From Caenorhabditis remanei (taxonomy: Eukaryota > Nematoda > Chromadorea > Rhabditida > Rhabditidae): a stretch of DNA of 64,000 bases. The notes beneath the pieces were generated by a model, which made no database searches, was not told the origin of the DNA, and saw only the letters and a list, made by a program, of their open reading frames with translations. The DNA lies in NCBI RefSeq assembly GCF_010183535.1, contig NC_071331.1, forward strand, positions 2,232,001-2,296,000, given 5' to 3'. Made by a program: the position numbers and the translations under genes. This document shows, one piece after another, positions 1,190 through 63,801 of this stretch; positions within the stretch are counted from its first letter, which is position 1, and every line of letters begins with the position of its first letter.

Positions 1190-1400
1190 GTTGTGGTTCT
1201 CCTGTATTTGAAACGTTTATTGAATGTTATGGACGAATGAAAATATTGAAGCCAAATCTCTGTTTCAATTAAAACATAAAACATCTTCAGTATCACTATC
1301 TATTGATCATAACTTTATTTTTTCTATATTGTTCAAAATAGAGCAGTTGGAGAGGAGAATAAATTTAATCCCGCTCTGAAGCAACTATGGTGTTTCGAAA
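1190..1400. repeat. Fragment of dispersed piRNA-bearing block
   Basis: Diverged copy of a stretch also seen near 7260-7450, 26400-26470 and 39390-39610. It shares the sequence around cctatgttgyggttctcc and a motif-bearing flank. It holds the 21U locus at 1260. Confidence 0.6.
1260..1327 (+). ncRNA. Predicted 21U-RNA (piRNA) gene
   Basis: Exact Ruby core CTGTTTCA at 1260-1267 with an AT-rich spacer. TGAT places the 5' U at 1307, spacing 40. Predicted RNA 1307-1327. Confidence 0.7.
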
Positions 1401-1420
1401 AAAAATGAAAAATGGATTTT

Positions 1421-1486
1421 GTGTTTCACTATTATGTTTTATTTATAGCAAAATAACAACAGTGATACCAGAAGTTTGTTTTTTGG
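1421..1486 (+). ncRNA. 21U-RNA candidate (GTGTTTCA core)
   Basis: Variant core 1421-1428. TGAT places the T at 1466, spacing 38. Predicted RNA 1466-1486. Confidence 0.4.
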
Positions 1487-1489
1487 CAC

Positions 1490-2843
1490 GAACTTGGAGC
1501 TTAATAATAATTCGGTATCATCTTCATGGCGCTGATTCAGATATCGCTCACCTGCTCCCTCTTCCTCGGTATCCAGGTGAAACATAAAATTCAAATTGCT
1601 GTTTCGAGTCCGCAAACACGCCGGTATTAGCTCGTATATTTCGACAATAAACATCACTTAACAACATTATACAATGATGTTCCCAACGACTTGACCCATA
1701 TTGAAGAGTATTCACGGTTTCACTGTTATCTTTACTAATAATATTCAACAGATCTGTTTGTAAGTCCGTATGTCGCCGACTCTAGCGCCCTCTGTACTGA
1801 ACCGTTTGTAATGAAACTTAGACAGGTCGCTTGGAAATTTGTCCCTGATAATGCCCGAACTTTTCTTTTTTCAAAAATGTCAAATTTGACGTCTTCTGGA
1901 GACGATACCGATTTCAACGGTAAATGGCGTTGAGAAAATGAGAAAAGGTGTGTCCCGACAGGGTGGTAGAAGGCTCATCAACCTGATACTACTGACTCGA
2001 TATTTCTTGACTGCATTCTCGATGGCGCCCCAGCCGCGCGTATTTGGTGTAGCGGTCTACGCAGATGACTCTCACTCATGGGGTGATGAGTTCGTTCCCG
2101 CCAGGTCGATAAAAGTTTTTTGGTTTTTTATTTTGATAAGAACATAGACAGCCAGTATATGAAAGTTGTAAATAACTTCGTTACAGTCGAGATCAAATGG
2201 GTTAAATAGGTACCGTTTTTTTGGCACTATTCACACTGATAGCAGTTAACAGTAAGAATTTCTTCCGCAGCTTCGCGGGGGAGGGAGGCGGCATCGCCGA
2301 TCAGTAAAGAACTTTTAAAAGCAGTACTTTGGGTGCATTATACTTATGAAGAGGCAAATAAATGGAAGAACACTACTCAAGAAGTGATGGCGATTTGTGA
2401 ATAAGGGACTTTGTCAAAGCTCGGCTACCTTCAAAAAAGTAATGAATTCTAGAATGAGAGTTAAGTCAAAAAATAAGTCAAAAATTAAAATTTTAGATCT
2501 GAATGACCACTCGCTTTTTAGTGAGGGAAGACCACTTTTTCCCCCGCCATACCTGCTGCCCGTTGGGAAAGAAGGCGGTGGAAGGAAGAGTTATCAAGTT
2601 CCAGTTCATCTGTAGGAGTATTGTGAAATAGTTTCAGTGAAGGTTGTTCCGGTAAAGGTAAAGTAAAAAACCGCTTATTCTAAAATCCATACTCCTTCAG
2701 GATCGAAAAAAGAAGTTGTAATATAGAAGTATAAGAGAGAGGAACTGGAGAAAACTTTTTTCCTCTGTTACGTATCCTAAGATTCGAGTTTGCCATTAGA
2801 TCTCTCCTGATCGTTTTCAGCGAACGTATGGGTTTGTTATAAC
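1490..2843. other. Non-coding stretch with a decayed duplicated block
   Basis: No gene recognised and no piRNA core. The part from 2270 to 2720 is a diverged duplicate of 3790-4010; both contain gggaggcggcatcgcc and an aagttccagttc segment. The MITE at 2844-3768 lies between the two copies. Confidence 0.5.
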
Positions 2844-3768
2844 TACTCACGTAATTTCCAGGCAGTTAGCCGACGAAAACGGCTATTAGCCGTCGATTTC
2901 GGCGCGGCTGCCATATGTATACGGCAGCCGCGCCGAAATCGTCGGCTAACTGCCGTTTCCGTCGGCTAACTGCCGTTTTCGTCGGCTAACCGCCGTTTCG
3001 GTAGTTTCCTATCCTGAAAGGAATTCGCCATGTAGGTGCCGTTTACATGCCGTTTACACGCCGATACCGCGCTGCTTAGGTGCCAAATATTTCAAATATT
3101 TTGAAAGTCGATAATTTATTTAAGCGATTTAAAAGTGGAAGACGGCATTTTGTGTCAATTTGTGTGGCCTGAGTTCAAAAATTCGTTGGCTACTTTTCAC
3201 TTTTTTTCTCCAATTTTCTCCAATCAATTTCTCCAATCACTAAATGGAATTGATTCCATGTGCGCTAAATTTGAAATACTGATATGGGTCTGTATCATTT
3301 ATCCATGAAATCACAAAAGTGGCCGTTTTCCGAGAACTTCGACTCTTATTTTGCCCTCAGGTCATGTATCTGATCGTGCCGGAGAGCAAGCCACCTTAGT
3401 GATGACTCTGGCAAAATTTAGATTGGATTAATAGTATTTAAAATTCGTGTCAAAATATTATGAAAAAGCAGCAGCCGACATCTCACGACTTCCGCGTGCC
3501 ACTATGTTTAACGTGGTGCCAATTCGATGCCCACCAAGCAGCCACATGGGCGCCGTTTAGTTGCCAAACGCCACTTAGATGCCGGATACTCCCCGACTTG
3601 ACCTTATTTGCCGTTCCGATCCCATTTCGGTGCCACACCGGCTAACTGCCATTTACCTCGGCTAACTGCCATTTTTCACGGCTAACTGCCGTTTCCAGCG
3701 GCTAACTCCCGAAACTCGTGGCTAACTCCCAGATAGGTGCCACCCACGCGCCAAAAATTACGTGAGTA
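2844..3768. mobile_element. MITE with TA target duplication and GGCTAACTGCC arrays
   Basis: Terminal inverted repeats ACTCACGTAATTT and AAATTACGTGAGT are flanked by TA on both sides, as for Tc1/mariner-type elements. Subterminal arrays of a 16-17 bp unit containing cggctaactgccgttt occur at about 2860-3000 and 3640-3740. A GC-rich palindrome lies at 2905-2945. There is no transposase reading frame, so it is non-autonomous. Confidence 0.8.
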
Positions 3769-4519
3769 ATTGTTTTATTTTTTTTTACTGTGGGGAGGGA
3801 GGCGGCATCGCCACCGATCAGTAAAAACTTAAAAATTGATATCGGAATGATCACTCGCTGTTTGAGGTGGCAAAAAGAAGAGTGATCAAGTTCCAGTTCT
3901 TCTGTAAGATTATTTTGAAACAAGGATAACATACTAAGAAAGCTCATTGGTAAATTCAAAATCCGTTCATTCTAAATTCTATATTCCATCTGTATAAAAA
4001 AAGTAGTTGGGAAATTTTGTAGAATTGTGGTCTAAAAATGAGAGGTTTTACAATTGTGCTTTGTCGGAACGGACTGCTCAGCTAAGAAGCGCCGCAGGCG
4101 CTGTAAAACTGAAAAGGGTGGTGTAGGGAAGGAGGTTGAGTCGCCGTTAGGCGACGTAAACCGACTGGTTATAATACATTTGCAATACGTAACCAGAACA
4201 CTAAATTATCGGACGTTAGAAAAAATCTAGTGAAGTTCAAAGTGCATACTTTTACCATAGAAAGCTCTTTTCAAAATAGCGTCTCTGGATGGTTGTAAAA
4301 TTTACTAATTTATACGAACTATTGCTGGATCATTTTTGGCATAGCAAACATTAGATTATCTAAAACAAATTGACTTCAAATTACAACCCCATTCCCAAAA
4401 TTTCCAGAACTTCAATGGCAGTTCCAAGTAATTTCTGACATTGCTTTATCCCATTAATGAAACACAAAAACATAATAAACAATTGTCTCGAAATTCAAAT
4501 TCATTTTCAGAATTGTAAC
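3769..4519. other. Intergenic, decayed duplicate block
   Basis: 3790-4010 duplicates 2270-2720. The remainder has no recognisable gene. A minus-strand GTGTTTCA at 4458 has its nearest YRNT T at spacing 42 and is not called. Confidence 0.45.
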
Positions 4520-4827
4520 TCAAGCTTTATACAAATTAGGGAACTTATAATCGTCTGTCTCCTGAAGCCAATTATCCTCACTCCACTTTGTATTCTTCCT
4601 CTCCATCACGTGTACCGTATAGGCATGACGTGACTTATCCGAAGTGTTGGCTTCACTCTTATGAACAACTAATCCATGGATCAGAATCAAGGGTTCCTTG
4701 GAAATCGGGACATGTTGGAATTTGGATTGATCGTAGGATGGACGGGTGCCAATGAATTTGAGGAGTGGGCCCCGGTGATGTCATGGGTTCTAACGAATCG
4801 GTAGTCACAGGTGGATGTGTTTAGAGA
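4520..4827 (-). pseudogene. Phytanoyl-CoA dioxygenase-like (PHYHD1-type) last exon, copy 1
   Basis: Minus-strand C-terminal exon of a Fe(II)/2-oxoglutarate dioxygenase resembling animal PHYHD1. Readable pieces are YRFVRTHD, FIGTRPSYDQSKFQHVP, LILIHGLVVHKSEANTSDK and SRHAYT, then WLQETDDYKFPNLYKA and a stop. The VHKS histidine and the Arg before HAYT match the family's metal and co-substrate positions. A splice acceptor (caatttcag) precedes it. A 1-nt deletion around 4765-4780, relative to copy 2, breaks the frame. Upstream exons are not recognisable, so it is a relic. Confidence 0.75.
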
Positions 4828-7480: not shown

Positions 7481-7546
7481 CTGTTTCAGTAGTTTGTTTT
7501 ACTAATTTCAAAATAAAAACAATGATACAAGTACCTGATGATTGCG
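7481..7546 (+). ncRNA. Predicted 21U-RNA gene
   Basis: Exact core 7481-7488. TGAT places the T at 7526, spacing 38. Predicted RNA 7526-7546. Confidence 0.7.
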
Positions 7547-9408: not shown

Positions 9409-9476
9409 CTGTTTCAAGACCTTCATATCTTACTTTTGGCAGACATTTTTTATAGTACGAATCGTTCGATGATGAA
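9409..9476 (+). ncRNA. Predicted 21U-RNA gene
   Basis: Exact core 9409-9416. TAGT places the T at 9456, spacing 40. The paralogous site at 29609 has decayed to CTGTTCCA. Confidence 0.7.
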
Positions 9477-10277: not shown

Positions 10278-11851
10278 CATGGAATGACTCCCGACTGGCT
10301 CCACAAAATTTACGAATTTATTGGCTTATTTGATAGATTCTACAGAAAAAATGACAAATCTAATAGCTTTTCCGGTGACTGGACCTAATTTTCGAGATTT
10401 TCAGATTTTTAGAAAATCAGTTTTTTTTCAAAATTTTTTTTTCATCATTTTTTTTCTCAATGTTCTCCCATCTGGCGAAAAAAGCAAAAACAAGTAAAAA
10501 ATAGAGAATTTCATAGACTTTTCGATAGGCTATGGAAATTATTTTGGTCATGTTCCTACTTTGACCAGACCCCCGAAAACTGAGAGTCAAAAAAAATAAT
10601 TTTTTTTGTGAAGGCGTTGGACTGTTTTAAAAAGCTTTAAAAAATAGAAGAACTCATGCAAACAAATTTTTCAAAAAAAAATTTGGGGGTAATCGCGAAG
10701 AAAAAAGAAATAAATTTTGTTGAAAATTTCGGTTTTTCAAGATTTTGATGGGTATAGGAAATATGCGATTTCTTCCGTTTAAGCTTTGAAAACGTTGGTA
10801 TATTTAAAGAAATTATTAACCACAAACTTTTAAAACCTGTATCAAAAAGTTTGAATGTTTTCTGATCAGTTTCCAATTCGTAGCAGAGGCTCATAAAATG
10901 CATTCTTTTGAGGTGGTGAAAATTTCAGAAGCTTACAACGTGCTTTAAACGTCAGATAAACGACTGTTGTTTTGAAAACATGCTTAAAATGAAAGATTCA
11001 ACAAATTCGGACACTTTAAACAAAAATTTTAATTTTAATTTTTTTTGAAAATTTCATAAGGGGGGACCACATGAAATTTTCATGAAAAATGAAAATTTTA
11101 AATTTTTGTTTAAAGTGTCCGAATTTGTTGAATCTTTCATTTTAAGCATGTTTTCAAAACAACAGTCGTTAATCTGACGTTTAAAGCACGTTGCAGGCTT
11201 TTGAAATTTTCACCACCTCAAAAGAATGCATTTTTTGAGCCTCTGCTACGAATTGGAAACTGATCAGAAAACATTCAAACTTCTTGATACAGGTTTTAAA
11301 AGTTTGTGGTCATTAATTTCATTAAATATATCAACGTTTTCAAAGCTTAAACAGAAGAAATGACATGTTTCCTATAACCATCAAAATCTTGAAAAACCGA
11401 AATTTTCAACAAAATTTATTTCTTTTTTTTTCGCGATTACCCCCAAATTTTTTTTTGAAAAATTTGTTTGCATGAGTTCTTCTATTTTTTGAAGCTTTTT
11501 AAAACAGTCCAACGACTTCACAGAAAAAATATTTTATTTTGACTCTCAGTTTTCGGGGGTCTGATCAAAGTAGGAACATGACCAAAAAAATTTCCATAGC
11601 CTATCGAAAAGTCTATGAAATTCTCTATTTTTTACTTGTTTTTGCTTTTTTCGCCAGATGGGAGAACATTGAGAAAAAAAATGATGAAAAAAAAATTTTG
11701 AAAAAAAACTGATTTTCTAAAAATCTGAAAATCTCGAAAATTAGGTCCAGTCACCGGAAAAGCTATTAGATTTGTCATTTTTTCTGTAGAATCTATCAAA
11801 TAAGCCAATAAATTCGTAAATTTTGTGGAGCCAGTCGGGAGTCATTCCATG
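10278..11851. mobile_element. 1.57-kb foldback element with TGA target duplication
   Basis: Two arms of about 780 bp pair from catggaatgactcccgactg at the left end to its complement at the right, with a very short centre near 11064. TGA flanks both ends (10275-10277 and 11852-11854). The unoccupied sequence cctgagctgaaat is preserved in the paralogue at about 18990. The family is unassigned and the open frames inside have no domain. Confidence 0.85.
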
Positions 11852-11875: not shown

Positions 11876-11883
11876 TGAAACAG
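11876..11883 (-). promoter_or_regulatory. Orphaned Ruby core, 21U region displaced by foldback
   Basis: Exact core on minus, but only 24 bp separate it from the foldback end at 11851, so the predicted start position falls inside the transposon. No YRNT T lies at spacing 38-40. The intact paralogue is 19015. Confidence 0.75.
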
Positions 11884-12697: not shown

Positions 12698-12763
12698 CTG
12701 TTTCAAATGCGTAATACATTGTCTTCTTTTTTTTGATTCTGATTTTTTCGGAAATACCATTAA
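12698..12763 (+). ncRNA. Predicted 21U-RNA gene
   Basis: Exact core 12698-12705. TGAT places the T at 12743, spacing 38. Confidence 0.7.
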
Positions 12764-12975: not shown

Positions 12976-13042
12976 AGTATGCATTATCCAATCATATCAA
13001 ATTTTAATAACTCGTTCCAAAGTAATGTTTGACTTGAAACAG
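12976..13042 (-). ncRNA. Predicted 21U-RNA gene
   Basis: Exact core 13035-13042 on minus. TGAT places the T at 12996, spacing 39. Its paralogue at 28539 carries a mutated core. Confidence 0.7.
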
Positions 13043-15216: not shown

Positions 15217-15283
15217 CTGTTTCAAGTCTTTATCAAAATCGGTAAAGTACAATTCGACTTAATTATACTGAATTCCAAGGTAA
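15217..15283 (+). ncRNA. Predicted 21U-RNA gene
   Basis: Exact core 15217-15224. TAAT places the T at 15263, spacing 39. Paralogue of the locus at 20333. Confidence 0.7.
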
Positions 15284-16742: not shown

Positions 16743-16810
16743 TATGCATTCGCCAAACTCTAATTGAAATTTTCCAGTATTAATGTATTCATGGTACACT
16801 TTTGAAACAG
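16743..16810 (-). ncRNA. Predicted 21U-RNA gene
   Basis: Exact core 16803-16810 on minus. CAAT places the T at 16763, spacing 40. Confidence 0.7.
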
Positions 16811-44665: not shown

Positions 44666-44671
44666 TAACAA

Positions 44672-47102: not shown

Positions 47103-48199
47103 ACAAGGGAATTCACTTTCCGTACCCGTTCAGAATTTTCTATAAACTTGCGCACTGATAGTTTCGAGTCTGCTCTGAGCAATGATGATAGTCAAAAAGT
47201 GCAAAACTACCGAAAAAGTGGATTTTTTTGCTCCGAAAGTTTGCTCATTTTTCATCATAGAAAACGCGAGTGCCACTTTGGGAGGACTATCGGGTTTGTG
47301 AAGGCAACTAGCTGCCCTCTCGGTCGGCGGTTGAATGGCCACGTGGCAGAGTGGGGGACTGGTAGGAGGAAGGTCCGGGGATCGAACCCTTCCCCTTTTT
47401 TTTTTTTTTTTGCTTTTTAAAAACCGACTGTGGAAAGTTAATTACAGCTTTTTCGACCTATTCTATGAAGTTTTTATTCCGTTTTGAACTATTTTCTACA
47501 TTATCTGAACATTTGGAACGAAAAATTTTTTGAGAAAATTTTGTGTTCTCATGATCATTCGTTCATGGTGGACACTCCTTTTTGCCAATTCTTTAATGAA
47601 TCATGGTTTTTAAGTAGGTATGCCGGATTCTTGCTGTACAGGGCCTTATTCATTCTAAATAAATATTTGGTTCGAGAGTAGATGAGAAAATTTGGTTGAC
47701 AAGCTTTCAAAAATGAGCGGGTAGCCCATGAGGAGATGAACGAATGATCATGAGAACACAAAATTTTCTCAAAAAATTTTTCGTTCCAAATGTTCAGATA
47801 ATGTAGAAAATAGTTCAAAACGGAATAAAAACTTCATAGAATAGGTCGAAAAAGCTGTAATTAACTTTCCACAGTCGGTTTTCAAAAAGCAAAAAAAAAA
47901 GAAAAAGGGGAAGGGTTCGATCCCCGGACCTTCCTCCTACCAGTCCCCCACTCTGCCACGTGGCCATTCAACCGCCGACCGAGAGGGCAGCTAGTTGCCT
48001 TCACAAACCCGATAGTCCTCCCAAAGTGGCACTCGCGTTTTCTATGATGAAAAATGAGCAAACTTTCGGAGCAAAAAAATCCACTTTTTCGGTAGTTTTG
48101 CACTTTTTGACTATCATCATTGCTCAGAGCAGACTCGAAACTATCAGTGCGCAAGTTTATAGAAAATTCTGAACGGGTACGGAAAGTGAATTCCCTTGT
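47103..48199. mobile_element. 1.1-kb foldback, unit 2 copy
   Basis: Twin of 35437-36533, with tRNA-like units at 47337-47395 (+) and 47907-47965 (-). Confidence 0.85.
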
Positions 48200-48311
48200 G
48201 AGATACTTAAAAGTATTCAGAATATTTTTGTTGACAACCAAATGTGCCTGAGTATCCAAAAAAAATATCGTCCAGGTACGCGAATGGTTCTTTTCCTAGA
48301 AATCTGATTAC

Positions 48312-48378
48312 CTGCAACAAGTTATCTAAGTATTGTCCAAAATTAATTTGATCTATTAATAAAACAATTCTGAAACAT
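48312..48378 (-). ncRNA. 21U-RNA candidate (unit 2 twin)
   Basis: Variant core 48371-48378 on minus, T at 48332. Twin of 36646-36712. Confidence 0.43.
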
Positions 48379-49286
48379 GTATATCATAAAGCAGTAAGGT
48401 TTTTAAATGTGTCTGTACTTCGCCAACAGTGCTGTATGACTAAGGATATCTTCCAACAAGAATTATCGTAGTGAGCTTGTTAGATGTACTTAGGGATGAA
48501 ACCGATCTGGAACGGAAATTATTAATTTTTTAAAGACAATTTTTCAACTTTCATGACACCAAGACTTCTGTTGTAACATAAAATCATTTTTTTCAAACAA
48601 GACATCTGAGAATGTTTTCACTCTTCTAGAAAACTTCCGTTTGTCTATTAGTCTGCCTGTCTATCCAGATTCTCCTGAGCTTAGAATTACTACCGTTTCT
48701 CAATAAACATGTAATTAGACAAGTATTTCAAACAACACTTTTGCGGTTATACCTCAAAAACAAACAAAAATATTCGCTTAAACCTGAACTGTCCCAAAAT
48801 GAAATGACATTGAAACGGGGAACCTCGGTTATTCTGCCGGTCTGTCTATCTTTATGTCGGGGTGTCTATGGTCATCAATTCATTGTTGAAAAGAAATCAA
48901 AAAGTTGATCTAGTAAGATGCACTCTCTGACTCGTTCGATCACCCATAGTCACACGAAAAAAGTTGACCATCTCCGATTTGCCCACCCTTCCGATCAGAG
49001 ATAGTATCAAGTCTCCTTAGCAAATTGAAGTACTTTTTGGCCGGGTCCGTCACCTGGGTACCTAGGAAAATCAAAAAATTGATATTTTTCGAAAATTTTT
49101 CCTGAAGTAGTTAGGTATGAAATCTCAACGCGAAATTATTGTAGACACTATTTTAAGCACTTTTTGTGTTCAGAACAAAATTCCAGCTCAACACCTTCAT
49201 TGTGAAAATTTTCTTAAATGAAGCCTTACTGAAACGGAACATTGAGTTAATCAGGGTCTGTGAATTTCCAAATGAGCTTTATTCAA

Positions 49287-49352
49287 ATAATGAAGATTTC
49301 AAACAAAACAGTTTCAAAGAAATGTCTCTGGGATTTCTTAACTCTGAAACAG
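49287..49352 (-). ncRNA. Predicted 21U-RNA gene (unit 2 twin)
   Basis: Core 49345-49352 on minus, T at 49307. Twin of 37621-37686. Confidence 0.64.
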
Positions 49353-49821
49353 GGAATATACTATTTTCGAAAAAACAGACCACTGTTTGGTTATCTGTTT
49401 GGTTGCCCAGGTATAGTTATCACTCCGCGTTTTTCATACAGTTCTGCACGTTTATTGAAAACACCTGAACTGTGTCTGAATAAAGCATTTCCGAAACTCT
49501 GAACTTCAAGATTTAATCATTTTATAGTTGCATACCCAACCGAACGTCCAAATGCCCCACATTCAGTAACTATTCTCGAATATAGCACTTCTGGAAATAG
49601 AAAACTACGATAAGGTGAGATACCAAATACCAATTCTCCAGGTGCAGACTAGTTTTTTCGAGATTTATGCAATAGTGATTTTGCAGTATTCATAACAGTT
49701 CCTAGCAATGACTAAGCACTAAAGAAAATTTTGTGGATAATATTGTTACTGTTTTAAAAATGTCCATAATCTCTCATTAATAACTTTTTTTGCATACGTG
49801 TATGAAATCTGAATCTTCAAT

Positions 49822-49888
49822 CAAATCAAAATATTTTTGCAATCAATCAAACTATTTTTTCATAGCCACCAGTATCAGTGTGAAACAG
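49822..49888 (-). ncRNA. Predicted 21U-RNA gene (unit 2 twin)
   Basis: Core 49881-49888 on minus, T at 49842. Twin of 38156-38222. Confidence 0.68.
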
Positions 49889-50881
49889 AAAATCCTGTTT
49901 CCAGTTGGCCTGATGATTTAACGAAATTTGGTGGTGACAGTAACTTTGTTCACATATGTTGTCTACAATCATTGAGGTTAGCACGAAGAACACAGTTTCA
50001 ATATTTTTGTGAATAATTCTTGTTTATGTAATTGCTCTCTCAACACAATAGCAACGCTGAATCCGAAAATGTAGTAAAAAAATTAAAGATGAGCAAACAA
50101 TTCAAAAAGTAAATACTATAAGGTTCTCTAACCTAAAAACCCACTGAAAACAAAAAAAAACCACAGAATTGTAATTAACAGTGTTACAAATATCGGGAAG
50201 AAAAATAAACATTGAAACGGAATGATTTGTTATCAAAGAAATTCTGCAAATGAAAATTTGAACCTGACAAGAATTAATCCAGCTGCAAAACTTCCCAAAT
50301 AGCGATTGCTTTAACTGATGATTCGCTCAATCGAGTACTGACACATCAAGAAATTATTCATATGTCTGACGTTTTATGAAACCTGGAAAACAGAAAGTTT
50401 TCGTTTACTATATTCCTGATAACACTCAATACCAACATTCAATTTACAGTTCCAAACACTTAAGTTATTGGAACAAAAAAGGTTTCGTCAGTCACCAGAT
50501 TTTTATCTACTTGATTTAAATAAAATAATCACAGAAAATGCACTATTTGTGAGATAAGATAGTAATCCTTTGAATTATTGGAATCTGAATTTATTAGTTT
50601 TCAATAACTTATAGATACTGGTGAGTGCTTCAAGAATATCTCAACGCCGTTATCAAAAACAAGCCTTGCCAACTATAACATTAGACACGGTTTCTAAAAG
50701 GACTGAAATAAATGTATTATTTTACTAAAATATTAGTTTGTGTTAATTCACAGTTAGAAACGGACCTCAATTGAAAAACTGAATTTGTTCATTCAGACTT
50801 CATCAGTTCCTGTTGTAGTTTGAGCTCGAACATTTGGTTCTTTGAAAAGAAACAGCAAGATTAATATAATTAAACAAAATC

Positions 50882-50949
50882 GTGTTTCATTAACATACAA
50901 CGGGATCCTGTATATCAAACTAATCCATTGTAGTCATCAAATGTGTTGT
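50882..50949 (+). ncRNA. 21U-RNA candidate (unit 2 twin)
   Basis: Variant core 50882-50889, T at 50929. Twin of 39216-39283. Confidence 0.4.
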
Positions 50950-51195
50950 ATTTAAAACAGTGATAATTGTTTTGCCATTTCTAGATGGGAAATATACAAC
51001 AGTAGGGAAAAGTTGTTTATGATTTGACTTACCATGTCATACCCATACCAAAGTAACAGCTAACCTCTGTTGTGGTTCTCCTGTATCTGAAACGTTAATT
51101 GAATGATACCGATGAATGGAAATATTGAAATCGGATTCGATGTTTCAATTGAAACATAAAATGACTTCAGTATCTCTATCAATTGGTTATACCTT

Positions 51196-51263
51196 TATTT
51201 TTTATAAATTGTTCAAATAAAACAGTAGGAGAGAAAAAAGTACTGAATCTTGCTCTGAAACAA
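51196..51263 (-). ncRNA. 21U-RNA candidate (unit 2 twin)
   Basis: Variant core 51256-51263 on minus, T at 51216. Twin of 39530-39597. Confidence 0.36.
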
Positions 51264-51430
51264 CAATAATGTTTCGAAAAGGTTTAAGACACTTGCTGAC
51301 TCGTTCGATCACCCGTAGGCACACGAAAAACGTCAACCATCTCCGATTTGCCAATCATTTGTAGTTAGCTATGAAATCTCAACGGGATATTATTGTAGAC
51401 ACTATTTTAAGCAATTTTTGTGTTCAGAAT

Positions 51431-52063
51431 AAAATGCCAGCTCAACACATTCATAATGCAATTTTTCAAAATATATGGAATTCTCGGATTTTTTCCATGA
51501 AATTGTTTTTATCTCGGCAGTGACCCGAGTAGACAGCGTTTTTTATTTGAAAATCAGAATCTAAATGAAATTCGGTAATGGAAACATTTTGTCCCTACTG
51601 GTATGAAAGAAGTATGAAAAAAACTTGGAATTTGATTTTTGAGCCATTCCGGTAAATTATTTTTGATGTTCAAAAACTATGGTTTTCTTCGTTTATCCAT
51701 TTAGTCATATCATTTTTCGTCATTTCCGATACAGTTTTCGATCACACCACAAAAAATATTCGAAAGAATTGAATTTTTTGAGTTTTTGAAATTTTTTCCT
51801 GAATTTAGTCATTCCAACTGAAATATTGAGGATAGCATCATAAAATTAGGAGAATATAATTAGAACATAATTTAGATTCAAAAAACAAAAACAATAAGTT
51901 TTTTGTTTATGGAATATCTGTCGTGTCTATCGGTGTGCTTTCCTGTATACAAATACCGTATTTACTCGAATAGACCGGCACCCCGAAAGTGAAGATTTCT
52001 TCATAATTATTTATCTTATTATAGAACGGGATTATTTGCTAGTAAAATCATATTGAGTTAAGA
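51431..52063. other. Unit-2-only segment left of H4
   Basis: AT-rich, no gene. From 51957 it contains a MITE end (accgtatttactcgaatag, then gaccggcacccc) without a matching right end. This may be a MITE cut by the Helitron insertion at 52063. Confidence 0.5.
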
Positions 52064-52693
52064 TCTTCTTCCTACTAATGGAATAGTTCTGTCTGTCCGT
52101 CCGACGCTTCCCCCTGAATATCTTTTTTCTCTCTGAACCGTTCCAAAAGATGTTTGGGGGTATAATCATAAACCTCCGAGCGCTTCAATTTTTTGGACCC
52201 TAGGTGTCAGATTACTGTAGGATTACTGTAGCTACCGTAACTCAAAAAATGAAAAAGGGTTCCAAACAGAACGAGGGGAGACCAGACTGGGGTGGTAACA
52301 TCCTTGACACCTCAGCATGACACCCAAAAAAAGATGGGTCGGTTACTGTAGGATTACGGTAGTTACAGAGTTTTGAAGATTAACAGTCGAATCTGAATAC
52401 CTTGGAAGGTTCAGATCCCCACTGATCGAGTACGTTGATAAATTGTTTAACTCTGTAGTCCCGTACTTTTCCTCAAGACACTTTGCAGGATTTCCACTGC
52501 CATACCCCTGAAAGGGTACTGTAGCTACAGTAACTCAAAAATCGGAAAAGCAGGTTAAAACTGAAAATACGGGGGCCATAATTTGGTTGTGACTCCCTGG
52601 GCACCTTAACACAATACTCCAAAAATTTTAGCCAGTTTGGCCGCAACATCCAGAAATTTCCAAAAGAATCCAGAATGTTCCAGAAACTTCTTG

Positions 52694-52749
<56 letters not shown>
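52694..52749. repeat. Poly(A) tract, 56 bases
   Basis: Uninterrupted A56 inside H4. The matching place in H5 (about 60440) has only a few mixed bases, so the tract is a private expansion or a sequencing/assembly product. Confidence 0.9.
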
Positions 52750-52751
<2 letters not shown>

Positions 52752-52959
52752 TCTAAAAACTTCCAGAGAGTTCTAGAAAATTTCAGAAATTAATAGAACC
52801 GTTCAAAAAATTCTAGACATTTCCAGAACCTTCCAGAAGATACCAGAAGATCCGGAAGTTTCAAGATTTTTCCAGAATTTTCTAGAAACTTCCGGAAACT
52901 TCCAGAAATACTTCCGATTTTAGAATCCAAATATTTGGGAATCTTCCAGAAACTTCAAG

Positions 52960-54302
52960 CAATATTTTTGAAATTCGGCGGGAATTCGAATATTCTGGAA
53001 CCTTCTAGAAACTTCTAGAGAAACTGTTGAATTTCGGCGGGAATTCAAATAATCCAGAACCTTCTAGAAACTTCTAGAAAAAACTTTTGAATTTCGGAGG
53101 GAATTCAAATATTCCAGAACTTTCTAGAAACTTCTAGAAAAACTTTTGAATTTCGGAGGGAATTCAAATAATCCAGAACCTTCTAGAAACTTCTAGGAAA
53201 AACTTTTGAATTTCGGAAGGAATTCAAATATTCCAGAACTTTCTAGAAACTTCTAGAAAAACTTTTGAATTTCGGCAGGAATTCAAATATTCCAGAACTT
53301 TCTAGAAACTTCTAGAAAAACTTTTGAATTTCGGCAGGAATTCAAATATTCCAGAACTTTTTAGAAACTTCTAGAAAAAACTTTTGAATTTCGGCAGGAA
53401 TTCAAATAATCCAGAACTTTCTAGAAACTTCTAGAAAAACTTTTGAATTTCGGCAGGAATTCAAATATTCCAGAACTTTCTAGAAACTTCTAGAAAAACT
53501 TTTGAATTTCGGCAGGAATTCAAATATTCCAGAACTTTCTAGAAACTTCTAGAAAAAACTTTTGAATTTCGGCAGGAATTCAAATATTCCAGAACTTTCT
53601 AGAAACTTCTAGAAAAACTTTTGAATTTCGGCAGGAATTCAAATAATCCAGAACCTTCTAGAAACTTCTGGAAAAAAACTTTTGAATTTCGGCAGGAATT
53701 CAAATATTCCAGAACTTTCTAGAAACTTCTAGAAAAACTTTTGAATTTCGGCAGGAATTCAAATAATCCAGAACCTTCTAGAAACTTCTGGAAAAAACTT
53801 TTGAATTTCGGCAGGAATTCAAATAATCCAGAACCTTCTAGAAACTTCTGGAAAAAACTTTTGAATTTCGGAAGGAATTCAAATATTCCAGAACTTTCTA
53901 GAAACTTCTAGAAAAACTTTTGAATTTCGGAGGGAATTCAAATATTCCAGAACTTTCTAGAAACTTCTAGAAAAAACTTTTGAATTTCGGCGGGAATTCA
54001 AATAATCCAGAACCTTCTAGAAACTTCTGGAAAAAACTTTTGAATTTCGGCGGGAATTCAAATAATCCAGAACCTTCTAGAAACTTCTGGAAAAAACTTT
54101 TGAATTTCGGCGGGAATTCAAATAATCCAGAACCTTCTAGAAACTTCTAGAAAAAACTTTTGAATTTCGGCGGGAATTCAAATAATCCAGAACCTTCTAG
54201 AAACTTCTAGGAAAAACTTTTGAATTTGGCGGGTATTCAAATAATCCAGAACCTTCTAGAAACTTCTAGAAAAAACTTTTGAATTTCGGCGGGAATTCAA
54301 AT
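52960..54302 (+). promoter_or_regulatory. Heat-shock-element minisatellite, 22 units
   Basis: Same 59-60 bp unit as 39765-40557, with five contiguous HSE pentamers per unit on minus. The largest array in the window. The last 13 units equal the H2 array. Confidence 0.83.
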
Positions 54303-55777
54303 TTTCGAGTTTTGCCGATAGTTCAAACGTTCTGGAAACATCCAGAAACTTCCAGAAAACTTTTAAAATTTGGCGGGCTTTCGAACGTTTTCTGTAACGT
54401 CTCAATGTTTTTGGGACGCTCAAACAATTGAAAGGACGTCTAAGTGTTTCAAGTGATATTTCTTTTTTTAAATAACATCTAAACTGGAATAGAGCCAAAA
54501 GACTTCAATCAAAAAACAGAATATAGAGAAGCAACCAACAAAACTGATTAGGAGAGCAACCCTTTCGAAAAAGTGCCCATGAATAGATGTCTCAAGATCG
54601 TCTCACTTTTGAGTTTCCAGCAGCGTCGTTTCGATTTTTCATCTTTCTTCAAACACGTCGAAGAGATGTTTCTAGACGCTTTAGTTTTGGTGCATTGACA
54701 ACGGGTAAGTAGAGGGAATCCAAAGTTTTCTCTGAAAACCCCGGAATGCCAAGATTAATTCCTTTGAAGTTCAGAGAGGTGTGACGGCCAAATTTGCAAA
54801 GCCGTCATACGGCCGGCAGAGAAAGGCCGCGGCCTCGGGTCAGCTTTGCCTCCAACAACTAAAAAAACAGCGGCCGGGTGAGCTGCTGTGAAACTGACTG
54901 AAATTTTGTGTTAGAGCCGGAATCAAGAATACCTATAGTGAAAAGGTCAGAAATCTTTTGTACCGCACCTAATGCTAAACGACAAAGCAGTGTCATTAAG
55001 AAGAAATAATGAAAAAACAGATAAGTCGAAACGAACAGTAAAGTTATAAGAACATTACATTACTTCATTCATCTCAAAAGTTTTTTTGGATTTAGAAGGA
55101 ATTTTCCAGCAGTTTCCACTTACTTTCATTCAAGTCATCTAAGTCCAGCGAAAATCGCGGCGTAGCCGCGAATTTCCTGCTGGTACTAACTAAGTAAGTG
55201 AAGATAGTAAGTGATGAACCCGACCTGGAACGGAAATTGTTAATTTTTCAAAGAAAATGTTTAACTGTGATGGCACCAACACTGCTGTTGTAAAATGTAA
55301 TTATTTTTTCATACAAGACATTTGAGAATGTTTTCACTTTTTCTGTGATGCACTCAAACGAAGTTTCATTCGAATGTTTGAAACATGACCCTTTTTGTTA
55401 AATCCCTATCAAAAACAGTAAATATTGATATTTTACCAGTGCCAGGAGCCATGACGTTCAGCTCATGGAGAGGCACCTGAAGGGGATATTAATTTTTTGT
55501 AAACAAACAACATAATATTTGTCGTGTCTTAGTTCTAAAAATACCGTATTAACCACAATCGTAGTGAGTTTAGATTCTTTCAGTTAGGGATGAAGCCGAC
55601 CTGGAATGGAAATTATTAATTTTTTAAAGGAAAATTTTCAATTTTTATAATACCAACAATGCTGCTGTAAAATTCAATTATTTTGTCAAAAAAGACATTT
55701 GAGAATGTTTTCACTCTTCTAAAAGAGTTCTGTTTGTCTATTTGTAATTCTCTTCACATTTTCTGAGCGGAGAATTA

Positions 55778-55844
55778 CTGTTTCAGAATATGCATGAAAT
55801 AAACCAGGTATTTCAAACTATAGTCTATTGACTTAAACCTGAAA
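55778..55844 (+). ncRNA. Predicted 21U-RNA gene (unit 2 twin)
   Basis: Core 55778-55785, T at 55824. Twin of 42035-42101. Confidence 0.66.
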
Positions 55845-56545
55845 CTGTCCCAAAATGAAATGACATTTTATGAAATGACATTTAAACAGTGAACTTCGAT
55901 TATTCTGTCAATCTGTCTATCTTTATGTCCGGGTGTCTTTGGCTATCAATCTATTATTGAAAAGAAATCAACTCGTTTCACTTTAAAGAATTCAAAAAAC
56001 AGTAATTTTATGAAGATTTTTCAATGCGAATTTTTGTTGTTATGAAGAAAATTAGACATAAATTGAAGCTATACACAAATTAGGATCGGATGAAAGTTTT
56101 TTCCTATGATGGTCAGTTCCATGCTCTTTATTGTTCAGGCGTGGGCAGGTTTTTTAGTTCAGTACAACACTGTTAACTAGATTTATTAATGCAATAAAAA
56201 TGGTGGGGACACTAGACTTTTGCTGTATCGATTCTTGGATGAAATAATTCTAAAACATTAATTTATTAATGATTGGACACGCTATCGGTCTGTCTGTTTA
56301 TATTTTCAACAAAAAATTTTAAGTTTTGTTTGTCTGTGTGTTTGTGTGCCAAGTATACGGTGAATTCAGATCGGAAAAATATTACTTGCATCCGAATACA
56401 ACATTTTCGAAACAGTGAGTTTGTTCATAGAAATGCTGGTTTGTCGTGATTTTCAGTCTCTACTTCTACTTTTTTTTTAAATCGCAATCAATGATCAGTT
56501 TCTGAATGAACTCGACTCGAAAAAGTGAACTTTGGTTACTTTTTT

Positions 56546-56613
56546 CTTTTTTGGACGAGGTTTTCATTGAGATCAGGAGATCAGAACGATAACTTTGAAT
56601 ATGTCTGAAACAT
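56546..56613 (-). ncRNA. 21U-RNA candidate (unit 2 twin)
   Basis: Variant core 56606-56613 on minus, T at 56566. Twin of 42803-42870. Confidence 0.43.
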
Positions 56614-57142
56614 ATAATGTTTTGTGAGACAATTGCCAGTTAGTGTGTCCGAATAACCTGATATCATTCTTAGATGCCCCTTTTAAGATTATATACTCAC
56701 GTTTGAGATGAACGAACTGTTCCAGATTAGCCTTTTTCAATTTGAAAGGGTTTTGTTACAGTGAAATTGATTTGCCTTTTTCACAACAAAACGATTTTTC
56801 TGTCTGGTACCAAATTCATACACTAATATTTATTACCCCTAGGATTAACCTACCATATGCAGTTATTTGATCTACCCACGGGGTGCCTAAGTTGCATAAC
56901 AAACACCACTATGACATCACACTGTCCAAATAATCCGATGATTGGGATAGGTGAGGGATGACCACCACACTCGAATTTCAATCTCCACACCTAAGCCCTA
57001 ATTGCTCGAGGATAATTGTGGCTTATGGACTTTCTTCCCCCATTGTACGAGCGTTTATTGCGCAATTAGAAAGAGGAAAGTTGCAACAATGTACAAAACA
57101 GTTTGAATGTGGTTGAATAATAAAAAAGAAAAAAAGATTTCT

Positions 57143-57213
57143 GGAGGTATGGGGAATTGAACCCCAGCCCTCTCCCATGCTAAGGGAGCGCTCTACCACT
57201 GAGCTATACCCCC
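57143..57213 (-). tRNA. tRNA-Ala (AGC), copy 2
   Basis: Identical twin of 43400-43470. Confidence 0.93.
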
Positions 57214-57291
57214 GCACATATCTGCGGCCGCCGGAAGGCGCTGATAAGCGCGGCTTTTTGAGAGTTTTTGGGTGATATTTTCTTTTGGATA

Positions 57292-57770
57292 TACCGTAAA
57301 AACTGTATTAGAGCGACATGTCGCTTTATTTTTCAAACAGATTTTTGTTGTCGTTCTATTAGCTCAGCAGAGGGCTTACAACTGCGCTCCACCGAAATTC
57401 CCTTGAAAAATGTCTCTTTTTCTCTGCGTCTCTCAATTTCGCACACTATTTTCTTCAGTTTCGGTAGAGCGCGGTTGTAAGAAGCGTGCTGTGCTAATAT
57501 TAGAGGCTGTCGTTCTACTAGAGGTTGTCGTTTTATTTTTCGAACGAAGTCCTGTCAGGTTCGATTTATGCGAATAAAAGTGAAATCAGAAGAAAAAAAA
57601 ACATAAAATTAATGAAAAAGCAACGAAAACACCCAAAACAGGGTGTCGGTCTATTAGAGGTGTCGTTCTATTAGAGGCTGTCGCTCTATTTTTCAAAGCT
57701 TAAGTTTGCTGTCGTTCTATTAGAGGTGTCGTTCTATTAAAGGTGTCGCTCTAATACAGTTTTTACGGTA
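57292..57770. mobile_element. MITE with TACCGTAAAAACTGTATTAG ends, unit 2 copy
   Basis: Twin of 43549-44027, including the nested MITE at 57359-57498. Confidence 0.83.
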
Positions 57771-58324
57771 TTCCAACGGTCTTCAGTGAATTTTCATATT
57801 AGCTCTGCAGAGTTCTTAAAACTGCGCTCCGCCGAAATGCTCTTGAAAAATGTCTATTTTTCTCAGAGCTCCTCCATTTCGCATACAATTTGTTTCCATT
57901 TCGGTAAAGCGCGGTTGTAACAATTTTCAGAAAAATGTTCCTGTTTCTACAAGTTCTCACAACTTTCTGATGATCTAGACAATACACTTGTTGCTGCTAC
58001 AATGGTTGTGCGATGATACTATTCTCACAAACAAACCTAATTTTAACAATATTTCATTAATATTAATATTTTTCAACTGAAAAAAATGCGCTCCGTTGAA
58101 CTTGTAAATTTTTTCCAAAATTCAAATCCTTCGTGAAATCGGTATATTTTCGAAACTTTCCCGCTCTAAACTTTTACGATTACCACCTGTTACCCCCATC
58201 AAGGACTATGACACTAACTGGTTTGTACTTGAGATAAACAGAGGGCATACAGCAAGACAAAGGCAGTGAAAAAGAGAGGGGGTGAAGTTTGGTCTGTTTG
58301 TGTGTCCAGATGTCCAAACATTTT

Positions 58325-58392
58325 CTGTTTCAATATGCCGTGAAACACAGCTTTCAACGTGAGTGGTTTACTAAAATAACTATTACTAAAAG
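58325..58392 (+). ncRNA. Predicted 21U-RNA gene (unit 2 twin)
   Basis: Core 58325-58332, T at 58372. Twin of 44582-44649. Confidence 0.64.
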
Positions 58393-58408
58393 CAAATTCA
58401 TGAAACAG
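58342..58408 (-). ncRNA. Predicted 21U-RNA gene next to Helitron H5
   Basis: Core 58401-58408 on minus, T at 58362. H5 begins 6 bp upstream. Twin of 44599-44665. Confidence 0.66.
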
Positions 58409-58414
58409 TAACAA

Positions 58415-61073
58415 CCAGCAGGAAATTCGCGGCTACGCCGCGATTTTCGCTGGACTTAGATGACTTGAATGAAAGTAAGTGGAAACTGCTGGAAAATTCC
58501 TTCTAAATCCAAAAAAACTTTTGAGATGAATGAAGTAATGTAATGTTCTTATAACTTTACTGTTCGTTTCGACTTATCTGTTTTTTCATTATTTCTTCTT
58601 AATGACACTGCTTTGTCGTTTAGCATTAGGTGCGGTACAAAAGATTTCTGACCTTTTCACTATAGGTATTCTTGATTCCGGCTCTAACACAAAATTTCAG
58701 TCAGTTTCACAGCAGCTCACCCGGCCGCTGTTTTTTTAGTTGTTGGAGGCAAAGCTGACCCGAGGCCGCGGCCTTTCTCTGCCGGCCGTATGACGGCTTT
58801 GCAAATTTGGCCGTCACACCTCTCTGAACTTCAAAGGAATTAATCTTGGCATTCCGGGGTTTTCAGAGAAAACTTTGGATTCCCTCTACTTACCCGTTGT
58901 CAATGCACCAAAACTAAAGCGTCTAGAAACATCTCTTCGACGTGTTTGAAGAAAGATGAAAAATCGAAACGACGCTGCTGGAAACTCAAAAGTGAGACGA
59001 TCTTGAGACATCTATTCATGGGCACTTTTTCGAAAGGGTTGCTCTCCTAATCAGTTTTGTTGGTTGCTTCTCTATATTCTGTTTTTTGATTGAAGTCTTT
59101 TGGCTCTATTCCAGTTTAGATGTTATTTAAAAAAAGAAATATCACTTGAAACACTTAGACGTCCTTTCAATTGTTTGAGCGTCCCAAAAACATTGAGACG
59201 TTACAGAAAACGTTCGAAAGCCCGCCAAATTTTAAAAGTTTTCTGGAAGTTTCTGGATGTTTCCAGAACGTTTGAACTATCGGCAAAACTCGAAAATTTG
59301 AATTCCCGCCGAAATTCAAAAGTTTTTTCTAGAAGTTTCTAGAAGGTTCTGGATTATTTGAATACCCGCCAAATTCAAAAGTTTTTCCTAGAAGTTTCTA
59401 GAAGGTTCTGGATTATTTGAATTCCCGCCGAAATTCAAAAGTTTTTTCCAGAAGTTTCTAGAAGGTTCTGGATTATTTGAATTCCCGCCGAAATTCAAAA
59501 GTTTTTTCTAGAAGTTTCTAGAAAGTTCTGGAATATTTGAATTCCCTCCGAAATTCAAAAGTTTTTCTAGAAGTTTCTAGAAAGTTCTGGAATATTTGAA
59601 TTCCTTCCGAAATTCAAAAGTTTTTTCCAGAAGTTTCTAGAAGGTTCTGGATTATTTGAATTCCTGCCGAAATTCAAAAGTTTTTTCCAGAAGTTTCTAG
59701 AAGGTTCTGGATTATTTGAATTCCTGCCGAAATTCAAAAGTTTTTCTAGAAGTTTCTAGAAAGTTCTGGAATATTTGAATTCCTGCCGAAATTCAAAAGT
59801 TTTTTCTAGAAGTTTCTAGAAAGTTCTGGAATATTTGAATTCCTGCCGAAATTCAAAAGTTTTTCTAGAAGTTTCTAGAAAGTTCTGGAATATTTGAATT
59901 CCTGCCGAAATTCAAAAGTTTTTCTAGAAGTTTCTAGAAAGTTCTGGAATATTTGAATTCCTTCCGAAATTCAAAAGTTTTTCCTAGAAGTTTCTAGAAG
60001 GTTCTGGATTATTTGAATTCCCTCCGAAATTCAAAAGTTTTTCTAGAAGTTTCTAGAAAGTTCTGGAATATTTGAATTCCCTCCGAAATTCAAAAGTTTT
60101 TTCTAGAAGTTTCTAGAAGGTTCTGGATTATTTGAATTCCCGCCGAATTTCAACAGTTTCTCTAGAAGTTTCTAGAAGGTTCCAGAATATTCGAATTCCC
60201 GCCGAATTTCAAAAATATTGCTTGAAGTTTCTGGAAGATTCCCAAATATTTGGATTCTAAAATCGGAAGTATTTCTGGAAGTTTCCGGAAGTTTCTAGAA
60301 AATTCTGGAAAAATCTTGAAACTTCCGGATCTTCTGGTATCTTCTGGAAGGTTCTGGAAATGTCTAGAATTTTTTGAACGGTTCTATTAATTTCTGAAAT
60401 TTTCTAGAACTCTCTGGAAGTTTTTAGAAGTTTTTGAAAGTTTCAAGAAGTTTCTGGAACATTCTGGATTCTTTTGGAAATTTCTGGATGTTGCGGCCAA
60501 ACTGGCTAAAATTTTTGGAGTATTGTGTTAAGGTGCCCAGGGAGTCACAACCAAATTATGGCCCCCGTATTTTCAGTTTTAACCTGCTTTTCCGATTTTT
60601 GAGTTACTGTAGCTACAGTACCCTTTCAGGGGTATGGCAGTGGAAATCCTGCAAAGTGTCTTGAGGAAAAGTACGGGACTACAGAGTTAAACAATTTATC
60701 AACGTACTCGATCAGTGGGGATCTGAACCTTCCAAGGTATTCAGATTCGACTGTTAATCTTCAAAACTCTGTAACTACCGTAATCCTACAGTAACCGACC
60801 CATCTTTTTTTGGGTGTCATGCTGAGGTGTCAAGGATGTTACCACCCCAGTCTGGTCTCCCCTCGTTCTGTTTGGAACCCTTTTTCATTTTTTGAGTTAC
60901 GGTAGCTACAGTAATCCTACAGTAATCTGACACCTAGGGTCCAAAAAATTGAAGCGCTCGGAGGTTTATGATTATACCCCCAAACATCTTTTGGAACGGT
61001 TCAGAGAGAAAAAAGATATTCAGGGGGAAGCGTCGGACGGACAGACAGAACTATTCCATTAGTAGGAAGAAGA
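58415..61073 (-). mobile_element. Non-autonomous Helitron H5 (2,659 bp)
   Basis: Minus-orientation copy very similar to H4, with the same ends: A on this strand before TCTTCTTCC, and CTGCTGG then T. Fewer minisatellite units and no poly(A) explain nearly all of the length difference from H4. Its 3' end faces that of H4. Confidence 0.9.
59300..60470 (-). promoter_or_regulatory. Heat-shock-element minisatellite, about 15 units
   Basis: Plus-strand reading TTCTAGAAGTTTCTAGAAGG then TTC in each unit, followed by more irregular TTCnnGAA runs to about 60470. Confidence 0.82.
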
Positions 61074-62048: not shown

Positions 62049-62116
62049 CTGTTTCAGTTACTACAGAAGAAAGTGTCCCTGTTCAGCTGTCTCACTGAAT
62101 AATTAAACCGGATTTC
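62049..62116 (+). ncRNA. Predicted 21U-RNA gene
   Basis: Exact core 62049-62056. CACT places the T at 62096, spacing 40. The only exact plus-strand locus in the right flank. Confidence 0.66.
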
Positions 62117-62384: not shown

Positions 62385-62389
62385 TATTT

Positions 62390-62870: not shown

Positions 62871-62936
62871 TAGAACACGAAAAATGAGGAAGCGTATTTC
62901 TTTCAGAAGTCAAATTTTCAGATATCTTTGAAACAG
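62871..62936 (-). ncRNA. Predicted 21U-RNA gene
   Basis: Exact core 62929-62936 on minus. CGCT places the T at 62891, spacing 38. Confidence 0.68.
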
Positions 62937-63165
62937 TAACTATAAAATTGTATTCAATAGTGCCGTTTTATTGGTAGTGTTTTAACTGTTGAGTTTTCAT
63001 TTAGATGGACTACTGCTTAGATATATTTTTGGTTTCAAATAAAAAAAGTCACGAAACAGTACTCATCACCCTTTTCACCTAATTGAGTGCCTGTCTGTGT
63101 GTCGGAGACTATCGGCTTGTTACCGGTCTATTTCAAGTTCTCTTTTTCTGGATGTAAATCACTCC

Positions 63166-63232
63166 GATTGTCTTTATTAGGCGTTATTGCTTGTCTTCAA
63201 AATCATTTCTTAAAAATATGCATCTGAAACAG
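63166..63232 (-). ncRNA. Predicted 21U-RNA gene
   Basis: Exact core 63225-63232 on minus. CAAT places the T at 63186, spacing 39. Confidence 0.68.
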
Positions 63233-63327
63233 GGAATTTCTAAACATTCGAGTGGTGTCATCACGTCCAATTATTTTTTGATTGTAACAAATTAAACCAA
63301 AAACCTGTTTCTCAGACCAAACTTTTT

Positions 63328-63393
63328 GTGTTTCAGAATCTGCTAATAACAACTTTTTCTTTTTTCTGCTATTCCGCGGATTTTTACACATAA
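63328..63393 (+). ncRNA. 21U-RNA candidate (GTGTTTCA core)
   Basis: Variant core 63328-63335. TATT places the T at 63373, spacing 38. Confidence 0.4.
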
Positions 63394-63692
63394 TTCTACA
63401 ATCCTCATGTTTTTCAACTAAAAACATTAGGAAACCGACCTATTTCAAAAATGATAATTTGGAAACCATGATTTTGCTTATTAAAAATGGATAGCGGTCT
63501 TTTCTAAATTTAAAATGGAAAGAACGAGGTGATGAAATACCACAAGTATTAACGGATGTTCCAAAACGGTAACTTTTGAGTTTCTGTTTTCAATGAATTC
63601 TTAGAAACGAACTGAGCGTAACAAATTAAACCAAAAATCTGTTTCTCAAATCAACATTTTTTCGTTTTTTGTTGTTCATACACTTTGCGAAA

Positions 63693-63759
63693 CTGACAGT
63701 GTGCTTAAATTAAACACACAAATTATAATTTCTCAATAAAACATACCTATCTGAAACAG
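63693..63759 (-). ncRNA. Predicted 21U-RNA gene
   Basis: Exact core 63752-63759 on minus. TGTT places the T at 63713, spacing 39. Confidence 0.68.
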
Positions 63760-63801
63760 TGAAATCCAAGAATTTGATATTGTCTTTTTTTTTTGAAACA
63801 G
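63735..63801 (-). ncRNA. Predicted 21U-RNA gene overlapping its neighbour
   Basis: Exact core 63794-63801 on minus. TGTT places the T at 63755, spacing 39, inside the core at 63752-63759. Confidence 0.66.

Follow-up and report, generated by a model that had tools for sequence, protein, structure and literature searches.

The 64,000-nucleotide stretch of DNA analyzed here, which will be called the window (Caenorhabditis remanei PX506 chromosome IV:2,232,001-2,296,000), is gene-poor and very probably represents one slice of the cluster of 21U-RNA genes on chromosome IV, the genes for the germline-protecting Piwi-interacting RNAs (piRNAs) of this nematode. The starts of type-1 21U-RNAs are defined by a YRNT initiator, the T of which is the 5' U. 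The strongest evidence for the present reading is that this initiator is phased at 38-40 nt from the promoter core, which is independent of the number of cores. Since the left arm of chromosome IV ends at 8,639 kb (as given in Table 1 of PMC10461856), the window lies within this arm.

Core density in the window and on chromosome IV

Exact copies of the CTGTTTCA core occur at 49 sites in the window (23 on the plus strand and 26 on the minus strand), the first at position 1260 and the last ending at 63801; this recount is identical to that of an earlier note on the same DNA. The expectation of two to three cores given in that note was too low, as dinucleotide shuffling yielded 4.23 (standard deviation 2.08; maximum 12), and none of the 100 shuffles reached 49. 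The reversed octamer, which served as a control, matches three times. Because seven of the 49 cores were copied by a tandem duplication, 42 are distinct, 21 on each strand, and these are mixed along the window without any marked strand bias (runs z -0.6). The count of 49 holds for exact cores, but as a count of loci it includes seven recent duplicates and misses the degenerate cores: when exact and variant cores are taken together, subtracting 20% for chance and including the duplicates, the window is estimated to hold ~90 loci.

Genome-wide, 19,000 cores were counted in 130,466,896 bases (1.46 per 10 kb), along with 6,781 reversed octamers. The density in the window (7.7 per 10 kb) is 5.3-fold above the genome mean, and that estimated off chromosome IV is ~0.7 per 10 kb. 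The earlier note had proposed that an equal core density across the genome would speak against a 21U-RNA cluster, and this is not what was found. Chromosome IV (25,790,997 bases, 19.8% of the genome) carries 105 of the 175 cores sampled (60%), as against 18 of the 124 listed positions of the reversed octamer (14.5%; 126 positions in total), although the two samples, both including paralogous copies, are imperfectly matched: the first consists of cores with one of three 4-letter words 20 bases on, and the second was drawn with one 4-letter and one 3-letter word.

According to this coarse sample, the core-rich stretches of chromosome IV are located at ~1.4-8, 9.5-12, 19-20.5, and 23-24 Mb, cores being thin between them, and the density at 1-8 Mb is ~6.7 per 10 kb. 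Twenty ten-kb stretches at 0.1-8.3 Mb, one of which is inside the window, carry 0-9 cores each (73 in sum); the 13 stretches read directly at 1.39-6.98 Mb outside the window hold 57 cores in 130 kb (4.4 per 10 kb). The idea that the cluster ends at the borders of the window is ruled out by the fact that 12 of the 19 outside stretches at 0.1-8.3 Mb carry 3-9 cores, the other seven carrying 0-2. The window is therefore one slice of a core-rich domain that spans several megabases, and is denser than its sampled neighbours are on average; the description of it as a 21U-RNA cluster stands as regards the layout of the loci, but not as regards a self-standing cluster.

Tandem cores separated by gaps of 31-60 occur 164 times genome-wide, as compared with 24 for the control. 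In two such pairs in the window (31047/31090 and 63752/63794), predicted 21U starts fall inside the next core. A fixed spacing of tandem cores as a general rule was ruled out, since no gap length clearly stands out in the 81 pairs that lie on chromosome IV (out of 100 listed places), there being 3.3 pairs per gap at 33-35 and 2.6 at the other gaps. Among these listed pairs, 39 of the 81 are located at 18-20 Mb and 17 at 23 Mb, which suggests that denser right-hand clusters exist on this chromosome (18.8-20.3 and 23.1-23.6 Mb).

Initiator phasing and promoter layout

The position of the initiator was analyzed in a pooled set of 106 distinct cores (42 from the window and 64 from the other 19 stretches) out of 115 sites with enough flanking sequence, copies more than 70% identical (ungapped, 90 nt) having been dropped. 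A YRNT with its T at +38, +39, and +40 is present in 25, 29, and 21% of these cores, respectively, whereas the control rate at 1601 scrambled-octamer sites is ~7% per offset. At least one YRNT at +38..40 was found at 80 of the 106 pooled cores (background 22%, p = 6e-32) and at 37 of the 42 distinct cores of the window (88%; background 19-22%, p = 7e-20); at random positions in the window the rate is 20%. When the duplicates are included, 44 of the 49 window cores are phased, giving 44 predicted starts, each of which is based on an exact core and a YRNT at the offset given in Table 1. Since the initiator peak is at +38..40, the spacer between the core and the 21U amounts to 37-39 nt. A lower second YRNT peak occurs at +52 (19 of the 106 pooled cores; one of 95 offsets).

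The flanks of the cores show a position-specific A/T pattern in which G is almost missing at -2; the A/T frequency at +11 and +12 is 0.86, as compared with ~0.64 in the controls, and the rise is smaller over the rest of the spacer. The phased YRNT and this A/T-rich extended motif together constitute, as far as sequence can indicate, the layout of type-1 21U-RNA promoters. In C. elegans, the 8-nt core is described as being followed by ~35-42 nt of A/T-rich DNA and then by the 21U (PMC3597512). YRNT is named at SNPC-4-motif and type-II 21U loci (PMC6468775). Along with the fact that 21U-RNAs of C. remanei have already been sequenced, these features support the proposal made in the earlier note that the octamers mark type-1 loci.

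It might be argued that the cores merely reflect repeat families in which CTGTTTCA happens to occur and play no part as promoters: seven cores were copied in the tandem duplication, and others belong to older paralogues (e.g., 11876/19015/29991). Against this, 42 cores survive the removal of similar copies, and loci of distinct sequence share the phasing of the initiator. Our own list of tandem arrays and palindromes, which falls short of a complete annotation of repeats, covers 10.7 kb (16.8%) and contains not one of the 49 cores; the chance of this is ~1e-4 if all 49 are taken to be independent and uniform. This explanation is therefore extremely improbable, and the remark in the earlier note that cores are largely absent from inserted transposons agrees with what was found for the listed repeats. 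We attach just as little weight to the idea that the motif drives the transcription of small nuclear RNAs (snRNAs) or other SNAPc-dependent transcription instead of piRNAs. The SNAPc motif found in snRNA promoters is reported to be the origin of the Ruby motif (PMC6436959), but a search with Rfam at gathering scores yielded three transfer RNAs (tRNAs) only and no snRNA in the window, and the spacing and the initiator fit 21U loci.

In the pooled set, phasing extends to several variants that differ from the core by one base: CAGTTTCA (35 of 59 sites), ATGTTTCA, CGGTTTCA, CCGTTTCA (12 of 19 sites), CTGTTTTA, and CTGTTTC[CGT]. Variant GTGTTTCA is weakly phased, and TTGTTTCA is not phased (11 of 49 pooled sites, background 26%). 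Inside the window, ATGTTTCA is phased at 16 of 23 sites. The C. elegans core is given as NNGTTTCA, and a C at its 5' end has been associated with male piRNAs (PMC7884074); the phased variants of C. remanei appear to match this core broadly, the link with male piRNAs being a C. elegans feature.

Some observations weigh against the identification of these sites as 21U loci. Five of the 49 cores have no phased initiator, and CAGTTTCA is hardly phased inside the window (5 of 18 sites). About 20% of all sites carry a YRNT at +38..40 by chance, and some single predictions are therefore false. The pausing-type decrease in G+C that follows the 21U is weak here, with values of 0.33 (body), 0.29 (21-27), 0.31 (28-48), and 0.34 (far downstream); in finer steps, the values are 0.37 at 5-9 and 0.28 at 25-29 with a later recovery, which is a small effect. 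Lastly, the loci were predicted from sequence alone, their expression being inferred.

If these are indeed 21U loci, the two strands of the window would contain dozens of mini-genes that are independent of one another, each with its own 21-nt product and each consisting of a CTGTTTCA-type core, A/T-rich flanks, and a YRNT 38-40 nt downstream, the T of which would become the 5' U. By analogy with C. elegans, the core would be bound by the SNPC-4/PRDE-1/TOFU-4/TOFU-5 complex, transcription by RNA polymerase II would begin 2 nt upstream of the U and produce a capped precursor of ~26-28 nt, and the latter would be trimmed to give 21U-RNAs for the Piwi protein PRG-1. The binding of the upstream sequence transcription complex (USTC), the start of RNA polymerase II 2 nt before the U, the short capped precursor, and the loading of PRG-1 are described in C. 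elegans (PMC6468775, PMC6436959). The transcription, processing, and PRG-1 loading of the present loci would presumably follow the same pattern, and their targets and chromatin state are likewise matters of prediction. Features expected of type-1 loci further include 2'-O-methylation of the PRG-1-bound 21-nt RNAs and, for clusters of the Caenorhabditis type, regulated chromatin marked by H3K27me3.

Interrupted cores, duplicated loci, and gene content

The five cores with no YRNT at +38..40 are 11876, 20333, 21172, 29991, and 33089, and two of them (11876 and 21172) are interrupted by repeats. The foldback element just downstream of core 11876 is bordered on both sides by TGA, which was read as a 3-bp target-site duplication; when the empty site is joined, a YRNT is present at +39, and the site aligns with paralogue 19015, which also has a YRNT at +39, and with paralogue 29991, which has none. 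The 477-bp palindromic element sits 2 nt downstream of core 21172, and the joined empty site has a YRNT at +38. The target-site duplication of this element includes GTTTCA, and the sequence on the far side is therefore CCGTTTCA, the initiator remaining at +38. The chance that both empty sites would show an initiator is ~4%, so that these cases provide support rather than proof. Among the best 40 candidates in each case, other copies of the foldback and full-length copies of the 477-bp element were found on several chromosomes.

Tentatively, and with more doubt than confidence, we suggest that a transposon may disrupt a 21U promoter and restore it in the same event, as the GTTTCAAT duplication appears to have rebuilt the core variant CCGTTTCA beside the old initiator. 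If the rebuilt core is transcribed, target-site duplication would allow piRNA genes to outlive insertions and might also serve to copy cores.

The two interrupted cores, the lack of a phased initiator at paralogue 29991, and the wealth of repeats and gene fragments in the region would also be expected if these were former 21U genes in a decayed and silent part of the cluster. The fact that 37 of the 42 distinct cores of the window (88%) are phased, as compared with 43 of the 64 other pooled cores, which come from the leftmost third of chromosome IV, makes such decay improbable, and the reading as a slice of the 21U-RNA cluster is preferred.

The tandem duplication, which contains seven loci in each copy, is ~11.6 kb long, and its copies are 99.95% identical over 6054 bp and 100% identical over 5569 bp. 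Copy 2 is ~2.1 kb longer, the extra sequence at ~51431-53503 including satellite as well as a segment of 60.4-61.1 kb repeated in inverted orientation. Either the duplication is very recent or two haplotypes have been assembled here.

As regards protein genes, no long open frame was found in the window: the longest stop-to-stop frame has 181 amino acids and overlaps a low-complexity repeat. The Pfam scan covered 108 of the 115 distinct frames of at least 66 amino acids, the seven omitted being in arrays near 15.3-16.2 and 21.4-21.7 kb, and yielded partial PhyH (phytanoyl-CoA dioxygenase) matches in three of the 108 frames and a marginal DUF1689 match in one (E 0.0092), which was taken to be due to chance. 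The PhyH matches belong to related segments at 4517-4997, 7764-8245, and 26524-26972, and that at 4523-4780 is limited to the domain's C-terminal end; these segments look like gene fragments. The claim in the earlier note that no intact protein gene is present is in keeping with the frames and with these partial PhyH pieces, but genes with short exons are outside the reach of a frame scan and may be present. Since three tRNA genes are predicted, the lack of a protein gene is not the lack of any gene.

Large palindromes are also present at 24072-24930, 35434-36536, and 47100-48202. Satellites of 59-60 bp dense in TTCTAGAA palindromes occur at 33593-34098, 39641-40598, 45318-45764, 52747-54341, and 59259-60492, and the window holds 31 of the 200 exact copies of TTCTAGAAACTTCTAGAA in the genome. 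The TTCTAGAA palindromes resemble heat-shock elements (HSEs). HSE-bearing Helitrons have been described in Caenorhabditis in a paper whose main text does not name C. remanei (PMC6927752).

Table 1. Predicted 21U loci, other cores, repeats, and tRNA genes, with positions numbered from the first letter of the window
Feature	Position	Strand	Core	21U start	YRNT	Remarks
Predicted type-1 21U locus	1260..1327	+	1260	1307	+40	
Predicted 21U locus	7481..7546	+	7481	7526	+38	
Predicted 21U locus	9409..9476	+	9409	9456	+40	
Foldback element	10278..11851	.				~1.57 kb; arms 96% complementary; between core 11876 and initiator
Core of interrupted 21U locus	11876..11883	-	11876			no YRNT at +36..43 as found
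Predicted 21U locus	12698..12763	+	12698	12743	+38	
Predicted 21U locus	12976..13042	-	13035	12996	+39	
Predicted tRNA-Val (AAC)	14015-14089					
Predicted 21U locus	15217..15283	+	15217	15263	+39	
Predicted 21U locus	16743..16810	-	16803	16763	+40	
Predicted 21U locus	17226..17292	+	17226	17272	+39	
Predicted 21U locus	18231..18297	+	18231	18277	+39	
Predicted 21U locus	18404..18470	+	18404	18450	+39	
Predicted 21U locus	18956..19022	-	19015	18976	+39	paralogue of interrupted 11876
Predicted 21U locus	19317..19384	+	19317	19364	+40	
Predicted 21U locus	19638..19704	+	19638	19684	+39	
Core	20333..20340	+	20333		+37 only	outside phased count
Core of interrupted 21U locus	21172..21179	+	21172			no YRNT at +36..43 in occupied site
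Palindromic element, 477 bp	21182..21658	.				terminal inverted repeats 28/30; 8-bp target-site duplication GTTTCAAT
Core variant CCGTTTCA	21657..21664	+	21657		+38	element end + duplicated target site; T at 21702
Predicted 21U locus	21752..21819	+	21752	21799	+40	
Predicted 21U locus	22664..22731	-	22724	22684	+40	
Predicted 21U locus	23451..23516	+	23451	23496	+38	
Predicted 21U locus	25071..25137	+	25071	25117	+39	
Predicted 21U locus	26206..26273	+	26206	26253	+40	
Predicted 21U locus	26377..26442	-	26435	26397	+38	
Predicted 21U locus	27031..27096	-	27089	27051	+38	
Predicted 21U locus	27416..27481	+	27416	27461	+38	
Predicted 21U locus	29335..29402	-	29395	29355	+40	
Core without phased YRNT	29991..29998	-	29991			diverged paralogue of 19015 and 11876
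Predicted 21U locus	30988..31054	-	31047	31008	+39	
Predicted 21U locus	31030..31097	-	31090	31050	+40	start inside next core
Predicted 21U locus	32282..32349	-	32342	32302	+40	
Core without phased YRNT	33089..33096	+	33089			
Tandem duplication	33711..59072	.				copy 1 33711-45329, copy 2 45377-59072; 7 cores each
Predicted 21U locus	34818..34884	-	34877	34838	+39	duplicated at 46543
Predicted 21U locus	35222..35289	-	35282	35242	+40	duplicated at 46948
Predicted 21U locus	37621..37686	-	37679	37641	+38	duplicated at 49345
Predicted 21U locus	38156..38222	-	38215	38176	+39	duplicated at 49881
Predicted 21U locus	42035..42101	+	42035	42081	+39	duplicated at 55778
Predicted tRNA-Ala (AGC)	43399-43470					in copy 1 of tandem duplication
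Predicted 21U locus	44582..44649	+	44582	44629	+40	duplicated at 58325
Predicted 21U locus	44599..44665	-	44658	44619	+39	duplicated at 58401
Predicted 21U locus (copy)	46484..46550	-	46543	46504		
Predicted 21U locus (copy)	46888..46955	-	46948	46908		
Predicted 21U locus (copy)	49287..49352	-	49345	49307		
Predicted 21U locus (copy)	49822..49888	-	49881	49842		
Predicted 21U locus (copy)	55778..55844	+	55778	55824		
Predicted tRNA-Ala (AGC)	57142-57213					in tandem duplication, duplicate
Predicted 21U locus (copy)	58325..58392	+	58325	58372		
Predicted 21U locus (copy)	58342..58408	-	58401	58362		
Predicted 21U locus	62049..62116	+	62049	62096	+40	
Predicted 21U locus	62871..62936	-	62929	62891	+38	
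Predicted 21U locus	63166..63232	-	63225	63186	+39	
Predicted 21U locus	63693..63759	-	63752	63713	+39	
Predicted 21U locus	63735..63801	-	63794	63755	+39	start inside next core

Comparison with 21U-RNA loci of other nematodes

The 21U-RNAs of C. remanei have been profiled by small-RNA sequencing, their features being reported as largely identical to those of C. elegans and their numbers as two to three times as high as in C. elegans and C. briggsae (PMC6468775). No map of the 21U clusters of C. remanei was found in a literature search by title and abstract opening, which mostly leaves subscription papers outside its coverage. The present analysis provides controlled, sequence-only evidence for 21U promoters on the left part of chromosome IV of this species, their initiator lying at a fixed distance of 38-40 nt, and yields a list of predicted 21U starts. 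The two natural experiments in which repeats have come between a core and its initiator, together with the near-identical duplication of seven loci, may inform studies on how piRNA genes are born, broken, and kept.

The clustering of 21U loci on chromosome IV is already known in C. elegans, and the window is an ordinary but clear slice of such a cluster. Like the type-1 clusters of C. elegans, which occupy two ~3 Mb regions of chromosome IV, it has the same 8-nt core, an A/T-rich spacer, and loci on both strands; the gene-poor DNA and the chromosome of the same name are common to both species, as is the YRNT initiator at type-1 loci. In contrast to these two regions, the coarse sample suggests that chromosome IV of C. 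remanei may have at least four core-rich stretches. For C. elegans, transposons have been described as integrating downstream of 21U motifs (Bagijn et al., 2012, as told in PMC3597512), and the repeats at 11876 and 21172 are likewise located just downstream of a 21U core; at 21172, in addition, the target-site duplication copies GTTTCA and re-forms a core by the old initiator.

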